Shown: piece after piece, positions 1 through 17,530 of the stretch
Layout of the letters: every line of letters starts with the position of its first letter
Position numbering within the stretch: position 1 is the stretch's first letter
Origin: a virus
Reading direction: 5' to 3' (one strand)
DNA: 20,282 nucleotides
IMG/VR virus record: IMGVR_UViG_3300048113_000142
Location: 1-20,282 of that record
Notes under the pieces: generated by a model
Databases searched by the model: none
Told to the model about the DNA's origin: nothing
What the model saw: only the letters and a program-made list of their open reading frames with translations
Position numbers and translations under genes: made by a program

Positions 1-508
1 TGGTTGCGATACGATAAAAAAAAAGCAGACAACCTAGAAAGATGTCAGCAGATAGATCCTGAAAGCCTAAGCCATCATGCACCTCTGGATCATAATTCTC
101 AATGCTATGCCTTCCAAATACCTTCTTGGTAATAGGTCTATACAATACACCTAAAACCTTCTCAGCGTTCTTATATGGCTCTTTTAGATATGTATCTAGA
201 TCAACATACTCCCCCATAGAGATATCTTCTATCTTAGGGTGAAAGCCATACTCCCTCCCCTTGAATTGGAATGTCTTTATCAGGTTAGGCTTCTCAGATA
301 ATACTTCTCCTATTTGATTCCTGATCAGATCCAGATCCTTCTTCTTCATTCCTTCCTGTTGAGCAGGAGTCAATCCACAGAATTGATATAAAGCTATCTC
401 ATCACCATTCTCCTCATTAGCCATAAGTATGAATTTCTTGTATACAGATAACTTCACATCTGATAGATTCTCTGGAATCTCTATGCTAACGGATTGTGTA
501 TCTCCCAT
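1..508 (-). CDS. Conserved phage protein downstream of terminase, 3' end missing
   Basis: An open frame starts at ATG 506-508 (MGDTQSVSIEIPENL) and runs off the left edge after 169 codons with no stop. It overlaps the last 23 bases of the large terminase gene, so it is probably translationally linked to it. The visible part has a GREYGFHP motif near residue 85, an aromatic and acidic stretch, and a hydrophobic segment (FLGCLLFFY) near the truncation. The pattern of GREYGF followed by GEYVDL and a later VLYRPI resembles an uncharacterised structural or tail-assembly-like family I associate with phages of Bacteroidetes, but I cannot name a function. A run of nine T in the coding strand (plus strand A at positions 16-24) stays in frame here. 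I see no clear ribosome binding site. Confidence 0.7.
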   Translation of the reverse strand, partial: MGDTQSVSIEIPENLSDVKLSVYKKFILMANEENGDEIALYQFCGLTPAQQEGMKKKDLDLIRNQIGEVLSEKPNLIKTFQFKGREYGFHPKIEDISMGEYVDLDTYLKEPYKNAEKVLGVLYRPITKKVFGRHSIENYDPEVHDGLGFQDLSADIFLGCLLFFYRIAT

Positions 509-1640
509 AATTAGGTTTGCTTAGTTTATTATATACCCCATATCTCAATGCATCAATGAGGTGATTGTATTTATCCTCTGGCTTATTCAATAGATTTCCG
601 TTCTTATCCTCCATCCATTTATAATTCTCCATCTCCTTCATGAGATTACTTCCTATGATATGGATCTTATATCTCTTTAACATATCAATCCCTGCATTAA
701 CAGAGTCTGCTCCTTTCTGAGTAGGTTTTATATTCCATCCCATTCTATGTAGTTCCTCTATACTCTTAGGCTCTGAGGAATCGCCAAAGATCTCATCATA
801 TCTCCCTATATCCAACTTCTGGAATTCTCTATTCAGATCCTGATTAGTTAGGTTAGTTGAATATAGTAATTCCTGAAAATAAAGATTATCTCCTTCCTGA
901 TAACATCCCACCAATGCAGAAGGATCATTAGTGAATCCAAAGTCAAGACCAAAGGAAAGAAACTTAGCAGTAACAGGAATCTGTTGGATAGTTGTGAATT
1001 GGAACACCTGTGCTCTATTCGTTCCTCTCTCACCTAATCCATAGACTCTCCAATAATGCTCATCTGTTTGCTTTAGTCTCTCTATCTCATCTATGATAGT
1101 CTGATCTAGGAATGGATTATCTAGGTATGTCGTTTGATAGAAGTCAGCATCATCTCTTGGTATTACCCTATCATAAATCCAATGGAATGTATCTGAAGGA
1201 TTGTAATCCAGAATGATCCTGCCGTTGGTACGGAATACAATTTGTTGCCAATCCTCAAAGGTCAATTCATTAGCCTCATTTAAGAAAGCCAGATCTCTCT
1301 TCCTACCTCTGATCTTCTGTGGCTGATCCATAGATATGAACTCTACTAGATTGCCGTTTAGTATATACTCTGAATTGGATTTGTTATGATTCTCCTCTCT
1401 ATATAGATCTGATCCTTTTAGGATATCTAAGAAGTCCCTCATGACTGAGGAGCGAACTGCAGGGAATGTCTTCCTAGCGATTGTAATAGTCTTACCTACA
1501 TTCTCCCCACAATAGTAGAAGATAATCCATAAGAGGATGTTGTATGTCTTTCCAGAGCGAGTACCTCCCTGTTCTACTACTATCTTCTTATCTGATCTCT
1601 TAAGATGTCCGTAGACTTTATTAACTCGGATCTTGCTCAT
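486..1640 (-). CDS. terL: Phage terminase large subunit
   Basis: This is the ATP-driven DNA packaging motor and nuclease that cuts concatemers and pumps DNA into the prohead through the portal. The 384-residue protein has a Walker A motif GGTRSGKT at residues 25-32, a Walker B DLAFLNEA at 116-123 with the acidic pair NE, and a coupling-like segment DYNPS at 145-149. The C-terminal RNase H-fold nuclease domain shows the expected acidic residues: D233 in GLDFGF, D287 in GDSSEP and D363 in HLIDALRYG. This architecture fits the Terminase_3/PBSX-like group. It is slightly shorter than many relatives, but all catalytic motifs are present. The start ATG lies inside the end of the small subunit gene (20-base overlap), the usual terS-terL arrangement. 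Confidence 0.95.
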   Translation of the reverse strand: MSKIRVNKVYGHLKRSDKKIVVEQGGTRSGKTYNILLWIIFYYCGENVGKTITIARKTFPAVRSSVMRDFLDILKGSDLYREENHNKSNSEYILNGNLVEFISMDQPQKIRGRKRDLAFLNEANELTFEDWQQIVFRTNGRIILDYNPSDTFHWIYDRVIPRDDADFYQTTYLDNPFLDQTIIDEIERLKQTDEHYWRVYGLGERGTNRAQVFQFTTIQQIPVTAKFLSFGLDFGFTNDPSALVGCYQEGDNLYFQELLYSTNLTNQDLNREFQKLDIGRYDEIFGDSSEPKSIEELHRMGWNIKPTQKGADSVNAGIDMLKRYKIHIIGSNLMKEMENYKWMEDKNGNLLNKPEDKYNHLIDALRYGVYNKLSKPNYGRYTIR

Positions 1641-1968
1641 CCACTTCCTCTATCTGGAATGTCTTCAGCCCTTCATGGGCTATCTCCTGTCTCTCAATAT
1701 ATCCTCTCTTCTTACCCTTAGTCTTTAGATAGAAGATCGTGCTACTAGGATTCCCTCCCTTTATCTGCTGATGTAATTGTGATTCTGCAAAGTCTAGAGC
1801 AACATTAGATAGATCATCTACTGCATCCTTATACTTCTCATCTTCTCTCATCCATCTATAGTGAGTCTCTCTTGAGATACCTACTGACTTACAGGCAGAT
1901 GTTACAATACCTAGAGATTTCTCTAAAGCATCAATCATTGCCTTTTTTGTTATGTCATTATTTGCCAT
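1621..1968 (-). CDS. terS: Terminase small subunit-like DNA-binding protein
   Basis: This probably recognises the packaging site and loads the large subunit. The protein is 115 residues from ATG 1966-1968 (MANNDITKKAMIDALEKS). A TTG two codons upstream is possible but less likely. A helix-turn-helix is visible at about residues 14-40, where ALEKSLGIVTSACKSVGISR is followed by ETHYRWM. It is followed by an acidic helical segment and a basic tail (KTKGKKRGY), the pattern of small terminases and related phage HTH proteins. The assignment rests on this HTH plus its position immediately upstream of, and overlapping, terL. It could instead be a generic HTH regulator, but the position argues against that. 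Confidence 0.8.
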   Translation of the reverse strand: MANNDITKKAMIDALEKSLGIVTSACKSVGISRETHYRWMREDEKYKDAVDDLSNVALDFAESQLHQQIKGGNPSSTIFYLKTKGKKRGYIERQEIAHEGLKTFQIEEVDEQDPS

Positions 1969-2003
1969 ATTCAATATCTTATGTTATATTGCATTAATGT
2001 TAT

Positions 2004-2073
2004 GCGATAGTAGTGTAATAGTAGCACATCTGGCATCCAGCTAGAAGGTGAGGTGCAAATCCATCCTATCGCT
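2004..2073 (+). tRNA. tRNA-Gly(UCC)-like gene, possibly degenerate
   Basis: The plus strand folds as a cloverleaf. A perfect 7-bp acceptor stem pairs GCGATAG (2004-2010) with CTATCGC (2066-2072). The D arm GTGTAATAGTAGCAC resembles the glycine-tRNA D arm. A 5-bp anticodon stem TCTGG/CTAGA (one G-T pair) closes the 7-base loop CATCCAG, in which positions 34-36 read TCC. The departures are A instead of U at position 33, a T-loop TGCAAAT instead of TTCAAAT, A in place of G18, and a T-stem GAGG/CCATC that is one base short on its 5' side. It lies antisense to all protein genes and its 3' acceptor strand overlaps the stop codon of the Mom-like gene. It may be a divergent phage tRNA, a decaying one, or a tRNA mimic. 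Confidence 0.5.
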
Positions 2074-2653
2074 CTAAGGCCATATCTTTTTTAGGGTATG
2101 GCTTTTTTAATTCCTCACATAATGATTTAAGAGATTTATCAATAGGATAGATATATTTATTCTTTCCAGATGATTTTCTTTTCTTAGCAATCTTCTTAAT
2201 ATGTGGTTTTATCGCTTTAGCATGTCTCCATTTACCATCAACAAAATATTCCATACCTGAAGAATCTGAGTCTCCTACATAATACCAATTAGTGGCTTGA
2301 TATATTGTTCCTTTATGATTCTGACCTTTATCAGCATACGAGATCACCAATCTAACCAATGGGCTATGTTTCTTTAATAATTTCAAACCTAATGCAATTA
2401 CTTTTGATGTTGTCTCTTGTTTACCATTAAGAGCGACTCTAATTAATTCAACTGCCTCACCCTGTTTCAATCCATATGGAGATCCAATCTGTGGAGTTGC
2501 TCCCATTCCAAAACAAATAACACCACACCATTCTCCATTTCCATTAAATACAGAATATGCATTATCATGAGCACGGGGGGCAATAGTTTTAGCATAATGA
2601 AATTTCATTAAAGCATAATCTACTGCCTTTCTTGAGGCTTTCTCTAATCTCAT
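2066..2653 (-). CDS. mom: Mom-family DNA adenine modification protein
   Basis: The 195-residue product resembles phage Mu Mom, a GNAT-like enzyme that converts DNA adenine to N6-methylcarbamoyl-adenine and so protects phage DNA from many restriction enzymes. Visible hallmarks, in order, are KFHYAKT near residue 20, a GVICFGMGA strand, the SPYGLKQGEAVELIRVAL segment at about 58-75, SYAD at 105-108 and GTIYQATNWYYVG at about 115-127. The C-terminus (about 150-195) is very lysine-rich, consistent with DNA binding. ATG 2651-2653 overlaps the stop of the ParB-like gene (ATGA), and a purine-rich AGGAGAGAT lies directly upstream, so the two are probably made together. The stop codon lies inside the tRNA-like element on the other strand. 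Function is inferred from family resemblance. Confidence 0.8.
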   Translation of the reverse strand: MRLEKASRKAVDYALMKFHYAKTIAPRAHDNAYSVFNGNGEWCGVICFGMGATPQIGSPYGLKQGEAVELIRVALNGKQETTSKVIALGLKLLKKHSPLVRLVISYADKGQNHKGTIYQATNWYYVGDSDSSGMEYFVDGKWRHAKAIKPHIKKIAKKRKSSGKNKYIYPIDKSLKSLCEELKKPYPKKDMALER

Positions 2654-3183
2654 ATCTCTCCTGCACTTACTGAGAAGTATGCTCCCTCATATTTTCTATC
2701 AATCAACTCCTGAATGTCTATCTCTGCCTTCTGTAGTTGTTCAGGGGAATCAAAAGTAATCTTCATTGTTGCAGGTTTGCTTTTAGCATCTGCAATAAGA
2801 TCATCCATATCTGGCTCTTCTAACAGAACAGGCAAATCTATACCCCAATCTTCTAGCTGATCAGCATTCCATTCATTAGCTATTAAATCCCAGTCCCATT
2901 CACCGAATGAAGAGTTGTCTTTAATAATAAATTCTCTCTGTTGATCTTCAGTAAGTTTGTCTGCAAATATTACAGGTATTTCTGTTAGTCCTGCTTCTTC
3001 ACAAGCCTTTAATCTCATGTTACCTCCTAATACAATCATATCCTGATTCACTACAATAGGACGAAGTTCTAACATTTCAGGAAATTCCTTTATGCTCTTC
3101 ACTAACTTCTCAAACTTATAGTCCTTAATGAATCTGGGATTGTCAGGGTTTGATCTAATTTGCTTAATATCTACTCTTTCCAT
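2650..3183 (-). CDS. ParB/sulfiredoxin-fold N-terminal domain protein
   Basis: The 177-residue protein carries the ParB-N/Srx fold signature: IRSNPDNPR at residues 9-17, a central strand LRPIVVNQDM at about 40-49, and the nucleotide-binding box VLGGNMRLKA at 51-60. Residues 79-115 (TEDQQREFIIKDN, then GEWDWD and WGID) are typical of stand-alone phage ParB-like proteins. No partition partner (ParA) or HTH domain is visible, so plasmid-type segregation is unlikely. Such proteins bind or hydrolyse nucleotides and often sit next to DNA-modification genes in phages. Here the gene is translationally coupled to the Mom-like gene (ATGA), which suggests an auxiliary role in DNA modification. That role is inference. 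Confidence 0.85.
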   Translation of the reverse strand: MERVDIKQIRSNPDNPRFIKDYKFEKLVKSIKEFPEMLELRPIVVNQDMIVLGGNMRLKACEEAGLTEIPVIFADKLTEDQQREFIIKDNSSFGEWDWDLIANEWNADQLEDWGIDLPVLLEEPDMDDLIADAKSKPATMKITFDSPEQLQKAEIDIQELIDRKYEGAYFSVSAGEI

Positions 3184-12749: not shown

Positions 12750-13225
12750 CTCTTATATATTACCCTTCCAGATTGGCGAACGGCTCTTAGAACCTCTCCT
12801 CTGTTGTTTTCTGACTTATAAGATACATGAACCCAATCAGGGTTCTCATCATCTCCAAACTCCCAGATAAGTTGATCAAACTCTAGGTTGTTCTTAATGA
12901 ACTCAAAGATATAAGCATTCTCTACTGATCCATCTAAATCTAAAGCCTCACCTTTTGAGTGCTGAGATCCTGAAGCACCACCGATCAGATCATTCAATGC
13001 CTTTGATCTATATCCTGAACTCACTATGATAGGCTCATTAAAATGATCTCTTATAGGTTGGAAGATCTTGTTAGCTATCTGGATTAGGTTAGATAAATGA
13101 TCACCACTAGGCTTATTGCTTATCCCATACTTAATAGCAGTATGCGATTTTGTAGCCTCTGATAATGTTAGATTCTTACTTAGCTTCATAGTATCATATT
13201 GAAATAAGGCTTTCAGCCATCTCAT
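12740..13225 (-). CDS. Endolysin, M15-family peptidase
   Basis: The protein matches the peptidase M15_3 family, zinc enzymes that cut peptide bonds in peptidoglycan. Counting from ATG 13223-13225, it has SSGYRS at 69-74, the zinc-site segment SQHSKGEALDLD with H89 and D96, a catalytic acid E122 in LIWEFG, and the final zinc ligand H133 in WVHVSY. The length, 161 residues, is normal for a single-domain phage endolysin without a cell-wall-binding domain. The chosen start overlaps the stop of the tail-protein gene (ATGA). A second plausible start is MKLSKNL 12 codons later. No signal peptide is visible, so it would depend on a holin for release. Confidence 0.85.
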   Translation of the reverse strand: MRWLKALFQYDTMKLSKNLTLSEATKSHTAIKYGISNKPSGDHLSNLIQIANKIFQPIRDHFNEPIIVSSGYRSKALNDLIGGASGSQHSKGEALDLDGSVENAYIFEFIKNNLEFDQLIWEFGDDENPDWVHVSYKSENNRGEVLRAVRQSGRVIYKRWD

Positions 13226-14949
13226 ATCGTTGTTAGTTCTATACACTCACTATCAGTTAGGGCAGTTGGGAAGATTGTGAATTGGTTTGTTACATTTCTT
13301 GATAGTCCATTGTAATTTAACATTTCTAAACCTTCAGGAACTTCAGTAATATATGTATGTACAAGAGACCCATTAACAAATAATTTAGAATTTAACCCAT
13401 TTAAAACAAATGCTACTTTGTCTCTTGTTGTACAGGTGTAGTCTACGGAGGTAGTGCTTGTATTTGAATATACTTGATATCTTAACCTACCATCTGTCAA
13501 AGAAACTATTCTAAATGATTGTAAAAAATTATCATTAACATATCCCCTAACAATGTCTCTATTAAATGTTGATTTTCCTTCCATATCACCCCAATCAAAG
13601 AACAATGTATTGTAGGCAGATGTAAAAGAAGAAATGTCAAGTAAATTTGCTAATGTATCCCCTAACCTCGTTTGACTTACACCATATGTAGGTATATACG
13701 ATGTTGGGTAGGTCGCATCTTGCTCCGCTTGGAAGCCATATATATATAATCCATCGCTTCCGTTTCCTGTGGCACTTAAAGTGTAAGCAGGTGAATCAGT
13801 TGAATCTCCTATTGATAAGTGTGCATATCTATTTGTTGAGTTGGCTACATATACCCATACTCTATACCAACCATTTCCCATATCTTCAATACCTGTATCA
13901 TCAGCAATAGAGTTGATTAGCGTTCCATTGGTCAAATTGTACATTGCATAGAGATATCCAGTTCCTGTATATGAAGAAACTGATATGGCGTTTTTTTCTC
14001 CTGCTTTAGCAAATACTGAAACTACTTGGCTTCCAGAACCACTTGTTTGCTTAAATAATCGTGTGTTACCTCCTCCAGATGTTACAATTAATTTAGTAGC
14101 ATTTGTTTTGCCTTCAGGAGATGATGCAGAGTTATAATCAAATGAAATATTACTAAAACTAAATGTAGCAGAAGATATGTACTCACTATGCTCTAAAACA
14201 TTAGTCCGACTCGGCTCTAACAACAAAGCAGGACACGAACCATTAGAATAGTCAAGGCGAGGCATATCCTCCAAGATACCACCTGCTACAGGAGCAGTAG
14301 TAGTCTCTTTATATGGGTAGGCTACAAGACCTTGATTGAGCATTGCATCTTGGATGTAGATAGTTCCTGCGGCATCTTGATTAGATGCGTTTTGTGGTTT
14401 TAATAGCAGGTTATTAGTTTCGTTCTTGTTGATGGTTATAGAACATCTATACCAATCCGTAGTACCTGATACCAACTCAATTGTTTGGGCAATTGGTGTG
14501 CCTCCTGCTCTAGTAGCGGTAACATTCTCTAAATCAAATCGTGCAGCATCTCCCGCAGTAAATAGAAATATCCTATCTAATGTACCTGCTTTGGCATAAA
14601 AACTAATGGTCACTACACCTGTATACACTAAACTATTTTTGCCGAAATATGCGTTCCCTGTGGCTAATTTATTTACAAGCCAAGCATCATTTGTTCCATC
14701 ATATCCTGCTTCACCATTTGTTATAAGGTAAGACGAGTCATCTCTTGCGAAATCATTAGAACCAATAATAGTATTCTCATACCCCTTCTCTATATAGCCA
14801 TCCGCATTAACACGAGTAGCACTTGTATTGCTACCTCTACTGAAGGTAAAGTCTCCTGTGCCATCCGTAGGCTTCAAACTCCCTAATGTACCATCCTCGT
14901 AGCCACTCGGTATCATTACCAAACTCGCTGACTCTAATGCATTCGCCAT
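13222..14949 (-). CDS. Large tail/adhesion protein, paralogue A
   Basis: The 575-residue protein is rich in Ser, Thr, Asn and Gly, with the beta-rich look of phage receptor-binding or tail proteins. The N-terminal block LKPTDGTGDFTFSRGS (about 25-40), ATRVNADGYIEKG and the mid-protein LLLEPSRTN recur in the 15836-17530 protein, so the two are paralogues. Repeated patterns (DWYRCSI, then GNGWYRVWVY, and sugar-binding-like SFYAKAG and SVFAKAG segments) suggest two or more carbohydrate-binding jelly-roll modules. The C-terminal part (VAFVLNGLNSKLFVNGSLVH) resembles a concanavalin/LamG-like fold. It probably binds host surface glycans. There is no GATC site in the gene, unlike most of the window. 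Confidence 0.75.
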   Translation of the reverse strand: MANALESASLVMIPSGYEDGTLGSLKPTDGTGDFTFSRGSNTSATRVNADGYIEKGYENTIIGSNDFARDDSSYLITNGEAGYDGTNDAWLVNKLATGNAYFGKNSLVYTGVVTISFYAKAGTLDRIFLFTAGDAARFDLENVTATRAGGTPIAQTIELVSGTTDWYRCSITINKNETNNLLLKPQNASNQDAAGTIYIQDAMLNQGLVAYPYKETTTAPVAGGILEDMPRLDYSNGSCPALLLEPSRTNVLEHSEYISSATFSFSNISFDYNSASSPEGKTNATKLIVTSGGGNTRLFKQTSGSGSQVVSVFAKAGEKNAISVSSYTGTGYLYAMYNLTNGTLINSIADDTGIEDMGNGWYRVWVYVANSTNRYAHLSIGDSTDSPAYTLSATGNGSDGLYIYGFQAEQDATYPTSYIPTYGVSQTRLGDTLANLLDISSFTSAYNTLFFDWGDMEGKSTFNRDIVRGYVNDNFLQSFRIVSLTDGRLRYQVYSNTSTTSVDYTCTTRDKVAFVLNGLNSKLFVNGSLVHTYITEVPEGLEMLNYNGLSRNVTNQFTIFPTALTDSECIELTTI

Positions 14950-15835: not shown

Positions 15836-17530
15836 TTATATCGTTGTAAGGGTTGCTAAATCTGCGTTTGATAGTCGTGTCTTAAATACAAGGGCTTGAG
15901 ATACAACACCGCTCATATTTGCAGTATTTGCGCTATAACCACCTACCCTTAAATCATCATATGTAACCGCAGGAGTATAAGTTACTGAAGATGTATCTAT
16001 CTGCTCACCATTAACATACAATACACTATTCCCACTTTCAAATGCAAATGCTGCTTTGAGTGTATCAGCAACATTGTTTTTTTGGAAACTGAATATAGTG
16101 CTATTATTATTTCGGTAAGACACAAATAAATTACCTGCCACACTTCTTGCAATAAATATAGTGTTTGCAAAAGAGGCTTGTTCTATTCTCATCAAGTAGC
16201 CTTCAGTATTTACTGCATCTTCAATAGTTGCCTCTACATACATCGTTCCTGTACCTTGAGGAAGTAAATCACTAATCCCACTTGCAATTTGCATAGCATC
16301 CGCCCCCCTCGTAATCGTGCCGCCCGAATGATTCGGAATGTAGGAAGTTGGGTAGGAGCCCGCTTCTTGCATTATTCCGTAAACAAAAATTGTTTGTGCT
16401 GGATTCGTGATTCCATAATCACCTAAAAGAATTAAAAAATCTTTATCTGAATTATCAGCCGTGAATGTAATGTCAAATCGCTTCCATTCAGTAGTCAATT
16501 CAGCGATTATCTGCTCGGTAGTTCCTCTTGTGAAAGAACATTTAACATTTACATTTGACGCATCGCTCTTTAGATAAAAAGAAAAAGAATATGTAGTTCC
16601 AATTGTTGTGTTAAATCTACCTAAATCAACAAATGCATTTGAATTTGGGTTTGTTGTAGTCCATTTGTATGCATTGCTTAAACCTTCTGGTGATTCATAA
16701 AAACCACTTTCCAAAGTAACATTGATTGATGAAAAACTATTATTATTTGTCAAGTATTCACTATAAGGAATCAAGTTAGTCCTACTCGGTTCCAATAAAA
16801 GAGACGGGCAATCACCCGAATAATCAAAACGGGGTTCGTCCTCTAATAATCCCGCCTTTCCCGTTGTTGCACCCGTTGAAATTACTTCAGTTGCTGCGAG
16901 GCCGATTTCCAATTGTGAGTCTTGGATGTAGATGCTTCCGCTTGTGCCGCTTTCATCATTATTTCCATCCGATGGGTATAGTCTTATTGAACTTAATGAT
17001 GAATTAAATGTAACGCTACAACGATACCATCCATTTCCAACATCTTCAATTTCTCGTTCAATGGCATTAAAAACATAACCCCCTAAAACACCATTTTCTA
17101 AATCATAGTATGCCCTAACATTTGGACTACCCACTGCATATATTTGAAGCCAACTATTTGTATTTTTTTTAGCATATACCGAAATAGTTTGAACTCCGCT
17201 TGATGATTTGTTTTGATATATAGTTCCGTTTGCTCCACTTTTAGTCAATAACCACGCATCCGAACTACCATCATATCCACTTTGTCCGCTTGTTTCCGTA
17301 GTCAAGTAATTGACCCAAGTCGTATCAAACTGGTTGCTCTGCAAAAAAAGATTCTCCCGCCCTTTCTCAATCAATCCATCAGCACCCACACGAGTAGCTG
17401 ATAGGTTTGAACCTCTTGAAAAGGTGAAGTCGCCATCACCATTAGTAGGCTTTATGCTATACGCTTTTCCATCTTTACCTGCTGCTCCGCTTGGTAGGAA
17501 TGCTAAACTTGCATCGTCAAAAAAACTCAT
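15836..17530 (-). CDS. Large tail/adhesion protein, paralogue B
   Basis: The 564-residue protein parallels paralogue A: IKPTNGDGDFTFSRGS near residue 25, ATRVGADGLIEKG, a carbohydrate-binding-like module (TISVYAKKNTNSW, then GNGWYRCSVTF), LLLEPSRTN in the middle, a second module (SFYLKSD, then EWKRFDITF), and a C-terminal concanavalin/LamG-like domain (AAFAFESGNSVLYVNGEQID). It likely recognises a host surface polysaccharide together with, or instead of, paralogue A. The ATG overlaps the stop of the 72-residue gene by one base (TAATG). There is no GATC site in the gene. Confidence 0.75.
   Translation of the reverse strand: MSFFDDASLAFLPSGAAGKDGKAYSIKPTNGDGDFTFSRGSNLSATRVGADGLIEKGRENLFLQSNQFDTTWVNYLTTETSGQSGYDGSSDAWLLTKSGANGTIYQNKSSSGVQTISVYAKKNTNSWLQIYAVGSPNVRAYYDLENGVLGGYVFNAIEREIEDVGNGWYRCSVTFNSSLSSIRLYPSDGNNDESGTSGSIYIQDSQLEIGLAATEVISTGATTGKAGLLEDEPRFDYSGDCPSLLLEPSRTNLIPYSEYLTNNNSFSSINVTLESGFYESPEGLSNAYKWTTTNPNSNAFVDLGRFNTTIGTTYSFSFYLKSDASNVNVKCSFTRGTTEQIIAELTTEWKRFDITFTADNSDKDFLILLGDYGITNPAQTIFVYGIMQEAGSYPTSYIPNHSGGTITRGADAMQIASGISDLLPQGTGTMYVEATIEDAVNTEGYLMRIEQASFANTIFIARSVAGNLFVSYRNNNSTIFSFQKNNVADTLKAAFAFESGNSVLYVNGEQIDTSSVTYTPAVTYDDLRVGGYSANTANMSGVVSQALVFKTRLSNADLATLTTI

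Follow-up and report, generated by a model that had tools for sequence, protein, structure and literature searches.

Two questions are raised by a locus in which the gene of a Mom-family DNA-modification enzyme directly follows that of a ParB-fold protein: from what donor the enzyme would draw the group that it attaches to DNA, and what the ParB-fold protein does beside it. Swinton et al. 1983 reportedly found the product of phage Mu Mom to be a glycinamide attached through adenine N6, and to our knowledge the donor has been open since that product was solved in the 1980s. The locus lies in a viral contig of 20,282 bp (the whole of it analysed here, and called the window) whose close genomic relatives are mostly Bacteroidota; read on the minus strand, the genes run parB, mom, terS and terL, accompanied by a tRNA-Gly-like gene (Table 1). 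Our main reading, to which we assign a probability of about 60%, is that this is a Mom cassette with glycyl-tRNA as the donor.

Table 1. Features of the mom locus, with coordinates in the window and the evidence for each
Feature	Coordinates	Strand	Evidence or remark
terL	486..1640	-	PF04466, E=8e-23
terS-like gene	1621..1974	-	phrog_309 (PHROG terminase small subunit), E=4e-7
tRNA-Gly-like gene	2004..2074	+	between mom and terS; antisense to mom
Mom-family GNAT-fold DNA-modification enzyme, 195 aa	2066..2653	-	PF25680, E=7e-32
ATGA overlap, ParB stop and Mom start	2650..2653	-	sequence; 4-nt offset in 130/172 distinct ParB-Mom pairs
AGGAG ribosome-binding site for mom	2658-2662	-	encoded within SAGEI codons of ParB tail
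ParB_N-fold partner protein, 177 aa, constant head and class-specific tail	2650..3183	-	PF02195, E=5e-7
ParB tail, enzyme-specific, C-terminal SAGEI	2650..2829	-	tail HMM and sequence
ParB head, codons 1-118	2830..3183	-	76-98% DNA identity with loci of other modification enzymes

A Mom-family enzyme and its ParB-fold partner

The sequence-only reading of this DNA had called the enzyme gene Mom-like, and the identification is borne out. The ORF scores 111.1 bits against Pfam Mom PF25680 (curated cut-off 27.1, also passed by 29 of 29 aligned relatives), matches phrog_1384 at 2e-45, and compares with Mu Mom (8bv8) at E=2.6e-8 by phmmer and 6.9e-19 by profile. Its AlphaFold2 model (pLDDT 89.9) is nearest to Mu Mom 8bv8, with a VIA Z of 19.8 over 183 residues vs. 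12.0 for the next-best GNATs, as expected of a Mom-like protein with a GNAT fold. The likeness to Mu Mom thus takes in family, fold over the whole length, the serine loop and the S-x-A-D motif: SYAD occupies residues 105-108, followed by GTIYQATNWYYVG at residues 115-127, and S83 of the window Mom aligns with Mu S124 at a nearly invariant position (S124 is termed 'essential' after a PDB title that calls the S124A mutant of Mu Mom inactive). Mu differs in its surroundings, having com upstream of mom, no parB (as the earlier reading had said) and no tRNA element. The predicted function of the window Mom is to make N6-glycinamide (N6-methylcarbamoyl) adenine in DNA.

The ATGA overlap of the two genes, also part of the sequence-only reading, was confirmed on the minus strand, and a survey of the neighbourhood shows pairing far beyond chance. 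ParB is directly upstream of mom in 78 of 80 related viral loci, the remaining two having mom ≤20 nt from the contig end; 72 of these 78 pairs show an offset of exactly 4 nt, and the ParB gene terminates in ATGA in 76. In the full set of distinct ParBs, mom comes next in 172 cases (with the 4-nt overlap in 130) and lies upstream in eight, counts to be read with the reservation that many of the compared contigs are fragments and that distinct loci are not fully independent of one another. The eight are mainly from Chloroflexota, with the order tRNA-mom-parB, so that both neighbours of mom are retained despite the reversed arrangement. The pair is kept in Bacteroidota, Bacillota, Pseudomonadota, actinobacterial phages and Chloroflexota, and occurs in the isolated phages phiEf11, Appa (a Microbacterium phage) and Wyborn, and in the Arthrobacter phage Shade with one small gene intervening; it is absent in Mu, Listeria LP-026 and Staphylococcus Alsa_2. 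No natural fusion of ParB with Mom, TAGT, TET or GNAT-ABC was found in the loci compared. Overlap length alone was rejected as evidence of pairing, 4-nt overlaps being common in phages. One locus has a tandem pair of Mom genes after a single ParB (L171:1991-3213).

The position next to the packaging genes had suggested modification shortly before packaging. This idea is weak, because the terS-side slot is constant in the window's phage group only, and ParB-Mom pairs in Microbacterium and Arthrobacter phages adjoin helicase/SSB or sliding-clamp genes. Elsewhere in the window, two large proteins (13222-14949 and 15836-17530) with similar N-termini (FTFSRGSNxSATRV), the second of which gives weak laminin-G and carbohydrate-binding matches, are probably tail-fibre-like.

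The N domain of the ParB partner fits CTP-binding ParB: its AlphaFold2 model, of modest confidence (pTM 0.56), matches CTP-bound ParB 7bnr with a Foldseek E of 5e-6, in keeping with the fold first assigned to it. The canonical GERR of the P-motif is replaced by GGNMR, in which G54 is invariant and R57 nearly invariant among relatives, and a GGxxR-type motif is present in 139 of the 172 Mom-paired ParBs. By Pfam, ParB_N stands alone in the 177-aa protein, with no helix-turn-helix (parS-binding) domain, and it is the sole Pfam domain in 25 of 29 relatives; no parA was found among the 20 window ORFs scanned, the contig being incomplete. Such proteins are often annotated as 'ParB-like nuclease', and a nuclease would turn the pair into a restriction-modification or attack system; we regard this as highly improbable in view of the fit to CTP-binding ParB N domains, of ParB_N as the only domain that Pfam finds in the whole protein, and of a PADLOC match that is limited to the N-terminal part of a methyltransferase profile. 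In a 2025 survey, ParB folds fused to DNA methyltransferases bound ATP and one acetyltransferase fusion bound GTP, and nucleotide binding was lost on mutation of the P-motif arginine (PMC12704722); that survey concerns fusions and does not mention Mom. With this arginine kept, it is plausible that ParB is a nucleotide-dependent helper or specificity factor for Mom, as had been proposed from the sequence.

An exchange slot for modification enzymes

The ParB head is not special to Mom. Searching with ParB, we found the same head in loci with a TAGT glycosyltransferase, TET/JBP, a fused N6/N4 methyltransferase, GNAT-ABC, an FkbM methyltransferase or a sulfotransferase, and the search also gave a radical SAM partner (with a distant head) and loci with terS directly after ParB. 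Head protein identity between enzyme classes reaches 99%, and the partners that carry a label are nearly all enzymes that modify DNA or sugar. Of the fixed ParB-Mom pair suggested earlier, then, the conservation holds and the exclusivity does not, since the head pairs with at least six other modification enzymes.

In 261 locus pairs with unlike enzymes, the head DNA is alike up to codon 118 (median; IQR 111-120) and then diverges, and identity returns near the stop of the enzyme gene. Measured on the window, the left edge of identity falls at 2816-2869 against TAGT, MTase, TET, GNAT-ABC, sulfotransferase and Mu-like Mom loci, and the terminase-side edge at 1794-1985 for all 46 non-Mom cassettes (another enzyme or none). 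The TAGT locus L187, for example, has 98% and 93% identity to the window down to 2830, and 95% from 1951 on. These DNA comparisons establish both the cassette and its exchange, and by the same comparisons the exchanged unit is the ParB tail together with the enzyme gene; that the window, DNA of a tailed phage, carries Mom in an exchangeable ParB cassette is, we judge, very probable. Parsimony on the head tree counted 48 partner changes, an upper-biased figure because the head is short.

Several slot occupants are of interest in their own right. In L195 (1160-2251), L196 and 12 further loci, a fusion of a GNAT domain with an ABC-type ATPase, a candidate DNA acyl-modifier, takes Mom's place behind the same ParB head, with a conserved ParB tail of its own that ends in ECRLLTL. 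Sulfotransferase, FkbM methyltransferase and radical SAM genes stand beside ParB in or near the slot (L282:2155-2781; L297:5570-6268; L381:3965-4657; L079:7987-9021), and these enzymes might decorate DNA bases or sugars carried by the DNA.

ParB beside TET/JBP and TAGT operons was reportedly described by Iyer 2013. For an intragenic exchange point and an enzyme-specific tail, no earlier description was found in the literature searched. Phage fusions of ParB_N with DNA methyltransferases (PMC12704722; phrog_498), of which we count 43 cases, have the same head at up to 99% protein identity and differ from the window in their tail and in that the window enzyme is a separate, translationally coupled gene. 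CmoX presents a further likeness, with ParB_N genes adjoining base-modifying enzymes (PMC12783734).

The tail beyond the exchange point is class-specific. A profile built from the tails of Mom-paired ParBs matched 138 of these 172 at E<1e-3 and none of the 91 ParBs paired with MTase, TAGT, TET, GNAT-ABC, FkbM or sulfotransferase; the exceptions, outside the tested classes, were L186, where terS follows directly, and L072, a weak match. In L186 (2330-2857), a ParB with a shortened Mom-type tail (YSGAYFVTTAI) immediately precedes terS, apparently a remnant of the slot after loss of Mom. This tail (tail A) accompanies window-like Moms in 132 of 157 cases; a second tail type, with a 22-nt overlap, accompanies 14 of the 15 Mu-like Moms of the slot. 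Since the mom ribosome-binding site lies in the SAGEI codons, part of the conserved C-terminal motif may serve translation rather than protein function. Within a class, Mom and tail distances correlate weakly (Spearman 0.15; head 0.23), so we claim class specificity alone and have dropped the idea of a fine co-evolution of Mom with its ParB tail.

A universal head, an enzyme-specific tail and translational coupling lead us to favour, if slightly, a role for ParB as the docking subunit for Mom on DNA. ParB would be made by translational coupling with Mom, would bind the DNA of the phage, probably by acting as a nucleotide-dependent clamp, and would recruit Mom there. For this step alone there is the competing account that the adjacency reflects ordinary mosaicism, the head merely supplying recombination homology and ParB having an unrelated role in partition or transcription. 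Exchange breakpoints do lie within the conserved head, compact phage genomes often contain 4-nt overlaps, and the correlation of Mom with the tail within a class is as weak as just stated; yet the tail is exchanged along with the enzyme and is specific to its class, the adjacency to Mom survives the reversal of order in Chloroflexota, the labelled partners nearly all modify DNA or sugar, and ParB is found fused to methyltransferases. We consider mosaicism an unlikely explanation for the pair.

A tRNA-Gly-like element beside mom

The tRNA-Gly-like gene, which shares 9 nt with the final codons of the mom ORF, went unnoticed in the sequence-only reading. ARAGORN reports no tRNA in the window, and the default filters of Rfam likewise miss the element at 2004-2074; with laxer filters it scores 40.6 bits against Rfam tRNA RF00005 (gathering 29), and R1, a covariance model built without it, matches it at 75.4 bits (E=2e-19). 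All 19 pairs of the model are standard in the window element, and in comparison with the elements of L197 and L184 there are five compensatory pair changes and no broken pair, so this is not a decaying relic. It has a GCG...CGC acceptor, U73 and C35C36, together with A33 for U33, A at 18 (G18 lost) and G at 55 (U55 lost).

The structure is likewise conserved among relatives: in an alignment of 29 elements 96.6% of cells are paired, with 175 double-change cells vs. 50 in shuffles. Among 100 elements, G1:C72, C2:G71 and C35C36 are present in all 100, G3:C70 in 98 and U73 in 96; G1:C72, C2:G71, U73 and C35C36 are the glycine identity positions that we take to be recognized by bacterial GlyRS. A 7-nt anticodon loop with U33, present in nine of nine host tRNA-Gly genes, was found in 17 of the 100 elements, and most of them would accordingly be poor decoders. 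A bulged A on the 3' strand of the T-stem, unusual for a tRNA, occurs in 97 of 100 (column 90 of the A4 alignment).

With R1, an element is located next to mom at 103 of 142 distinct Mom loci and is detected at one of the 102 loci that lack Mom, figures that concern position relative to mom only and were taken with controls, since the model detects ordinary bacterial tRNA-Gly as well (host genes score roughly 40-60 bits). By sample, the element is present in 84 of 90 viral and 19 of 52 genomic distinct Mom loci, and three isolated phage genomes have exactly one match each, adjoining mom. The ARAGORN scan gave tRNA genes next to 53 of the 198 distinct Mom loci and at none of 91 loci with other enzymes; wherever the anticodon could be read it was that of Gly (TCC, ACC, CCC). 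In 70 cases the element is found 3' of mom and on its strand, in 26 it is 3' but on the opposite strand, and in seven (Chloroflexota) it is 5'; with elements on either strand, co-transcription with mom is not general.

The edges of exchange tell the same story. Between the window and Mu-like Mom loci the terminase-side identity spans the tRNA, to 2076-2078, in seven of 11 comparisons, and in the 46 comparisons of the window with loci of another enzyme or no enzyme it never includes the tRNA, stopping at ≤1985; the tRNA thus follows Mom, and does so across two Mom clades. The Mu-like clade in the slot (31-36% identity to Mu) has both ParB and tRNA-Gly, unlike Mu itself. The element is absent beside Mu Mom and many Moms of Bacillota, Pseudomonadota and some Bacteroidota, so the gene is not needed in cis, and host tRNA-Gly would have to serve such enzymes.

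A tRNA-like element at the terminase-side end of Mom cassettes, with some exchange edges (2076-2078) just beside it, might also be an anchor for recombination or integration at that end of the slot. An anchor, however, needs neither intact compensated pairing nor glycine identity elements; the element moreover lies on both strands and also 5' of mom, the non-Mom exchanges end beyond it at terS (1794-1985), and no integrase domain was found in the 20 window ORFs scanned. We hold such an anchor to be very unlikely.

Two further observations concern the element. Its sole occurrence in a non-Mom locus (L372:3576-3646) is 146 nt upstream of a ParB-methyltransferase fusion. In L012 (1261-1335), L034 (2675-2748) and others, the Mom ORF runs through the tRNA-Gly gene and gains a spurious-looking C-terminal extension (VGGSNPTLAL and similar).

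Glycyl-tRNA as the putative donor

A glycine tRNA that is linked to mom, chargeable and mostly unfit to decode is most simply Mom's donor, and it is the glycinamide on adenine made by Mu Mom that leads us to propose glycyl-tRNA in this role. We consider glycyl-tRNA the probable donor, judging from the features of the element. Once expressed, the tRNA-Gly-like RNA would be charged by the host glycyl-tRNA synthetase and, mostly kept from decoding by its structure, would hand its glycyl groups to Mom; Mom would then attach a glycine-derived group to adenine N6, and in one possible chemistry the glycyl group would first pass to N6 and then rearrange to give the glycinamide. An analogy, and no more, is offered by staphylococci, whose cell-wall tRNA-Gly is charged but bypasses translation and serves a non-ribosomal glycyl transferase (FemXAB); that tRNA acts in peptidoglycan, whereas the acceptor proposed here would be DNA. 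No report of a tRNA link to Mom was found in the literature searched, preprints and most subscription papers being outside its reach.

The GNAT fold of Mom agrees with a different donor, a CoA thioester (glycyl-CoA or acetyl-CoA), and one published prediction for Mom is an acyl-CoA, for instance glycyl-CoA (PMC7824862). The tRNA-Gly would then be a passenger, tRNA genes being frequent in phages, or a supplement for the translation of glycine codons. Yet the GNAT CoA motif [QR]xxGx[GA], which belongs to the same loop as Mu S124, is missing in Moms apart from three of 191 distinct ones. A passenger does not account for glycine alone at this place, with no other amino acid, nor for an element that goes where Mom goes and is missing beside other enzymes, even the other GNAT-type one; and a translation supplement fits poorly with elements most of which lack the 7-nt loop with U33. 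A CoA donor therefore seems to us unlikely.

We give still less credence to the view that the glycine-charged RNA regulates or senses Mom, for instance by inhibiting a toxic Mom, instead of serving as its donor. Artificially expressed Mom is toxic and translation of Mu mom is tightly regulated (PMC12707154, PMC6483171), and some elements are antisense to the mom 3' end. Sense (70) and antisense (26) copies are both common, however, and regulation would leave the invariant glycine identity alongside lost decoding features unexplained.

With glycyl-tRNA as donor, a broader picture emerges, for which we see somewhat better than even odds: Moms would be aminoacyl-tRNA-dependent DNA modifiers that work via glycyl-tRNA, many phages would carry a dedicated non-translating tRNA-Gly for them, and the ParB head would be a universal adaptor for interchangeable enzymes with matching tails. 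The glycine tRNA, which accompanies mom and not the other modifiers of the slot, offers a concrete, testable donor; should this be true, we know of no earlier DNA base modification that uses a charged tRNA. The exchange slot likewise offers a way to approach the role of phage ParB domains beside DNA-modifying enzymes, the function of which was stated to be unknown in 2025 (PMC12783734). The enzyme that a ParB serves is predicted by its tail, and the tails also flag GNAT-ABC, FkbM methyltransferase, sulfotransferase and radical SAM proteins as candidate DNA modifiers.
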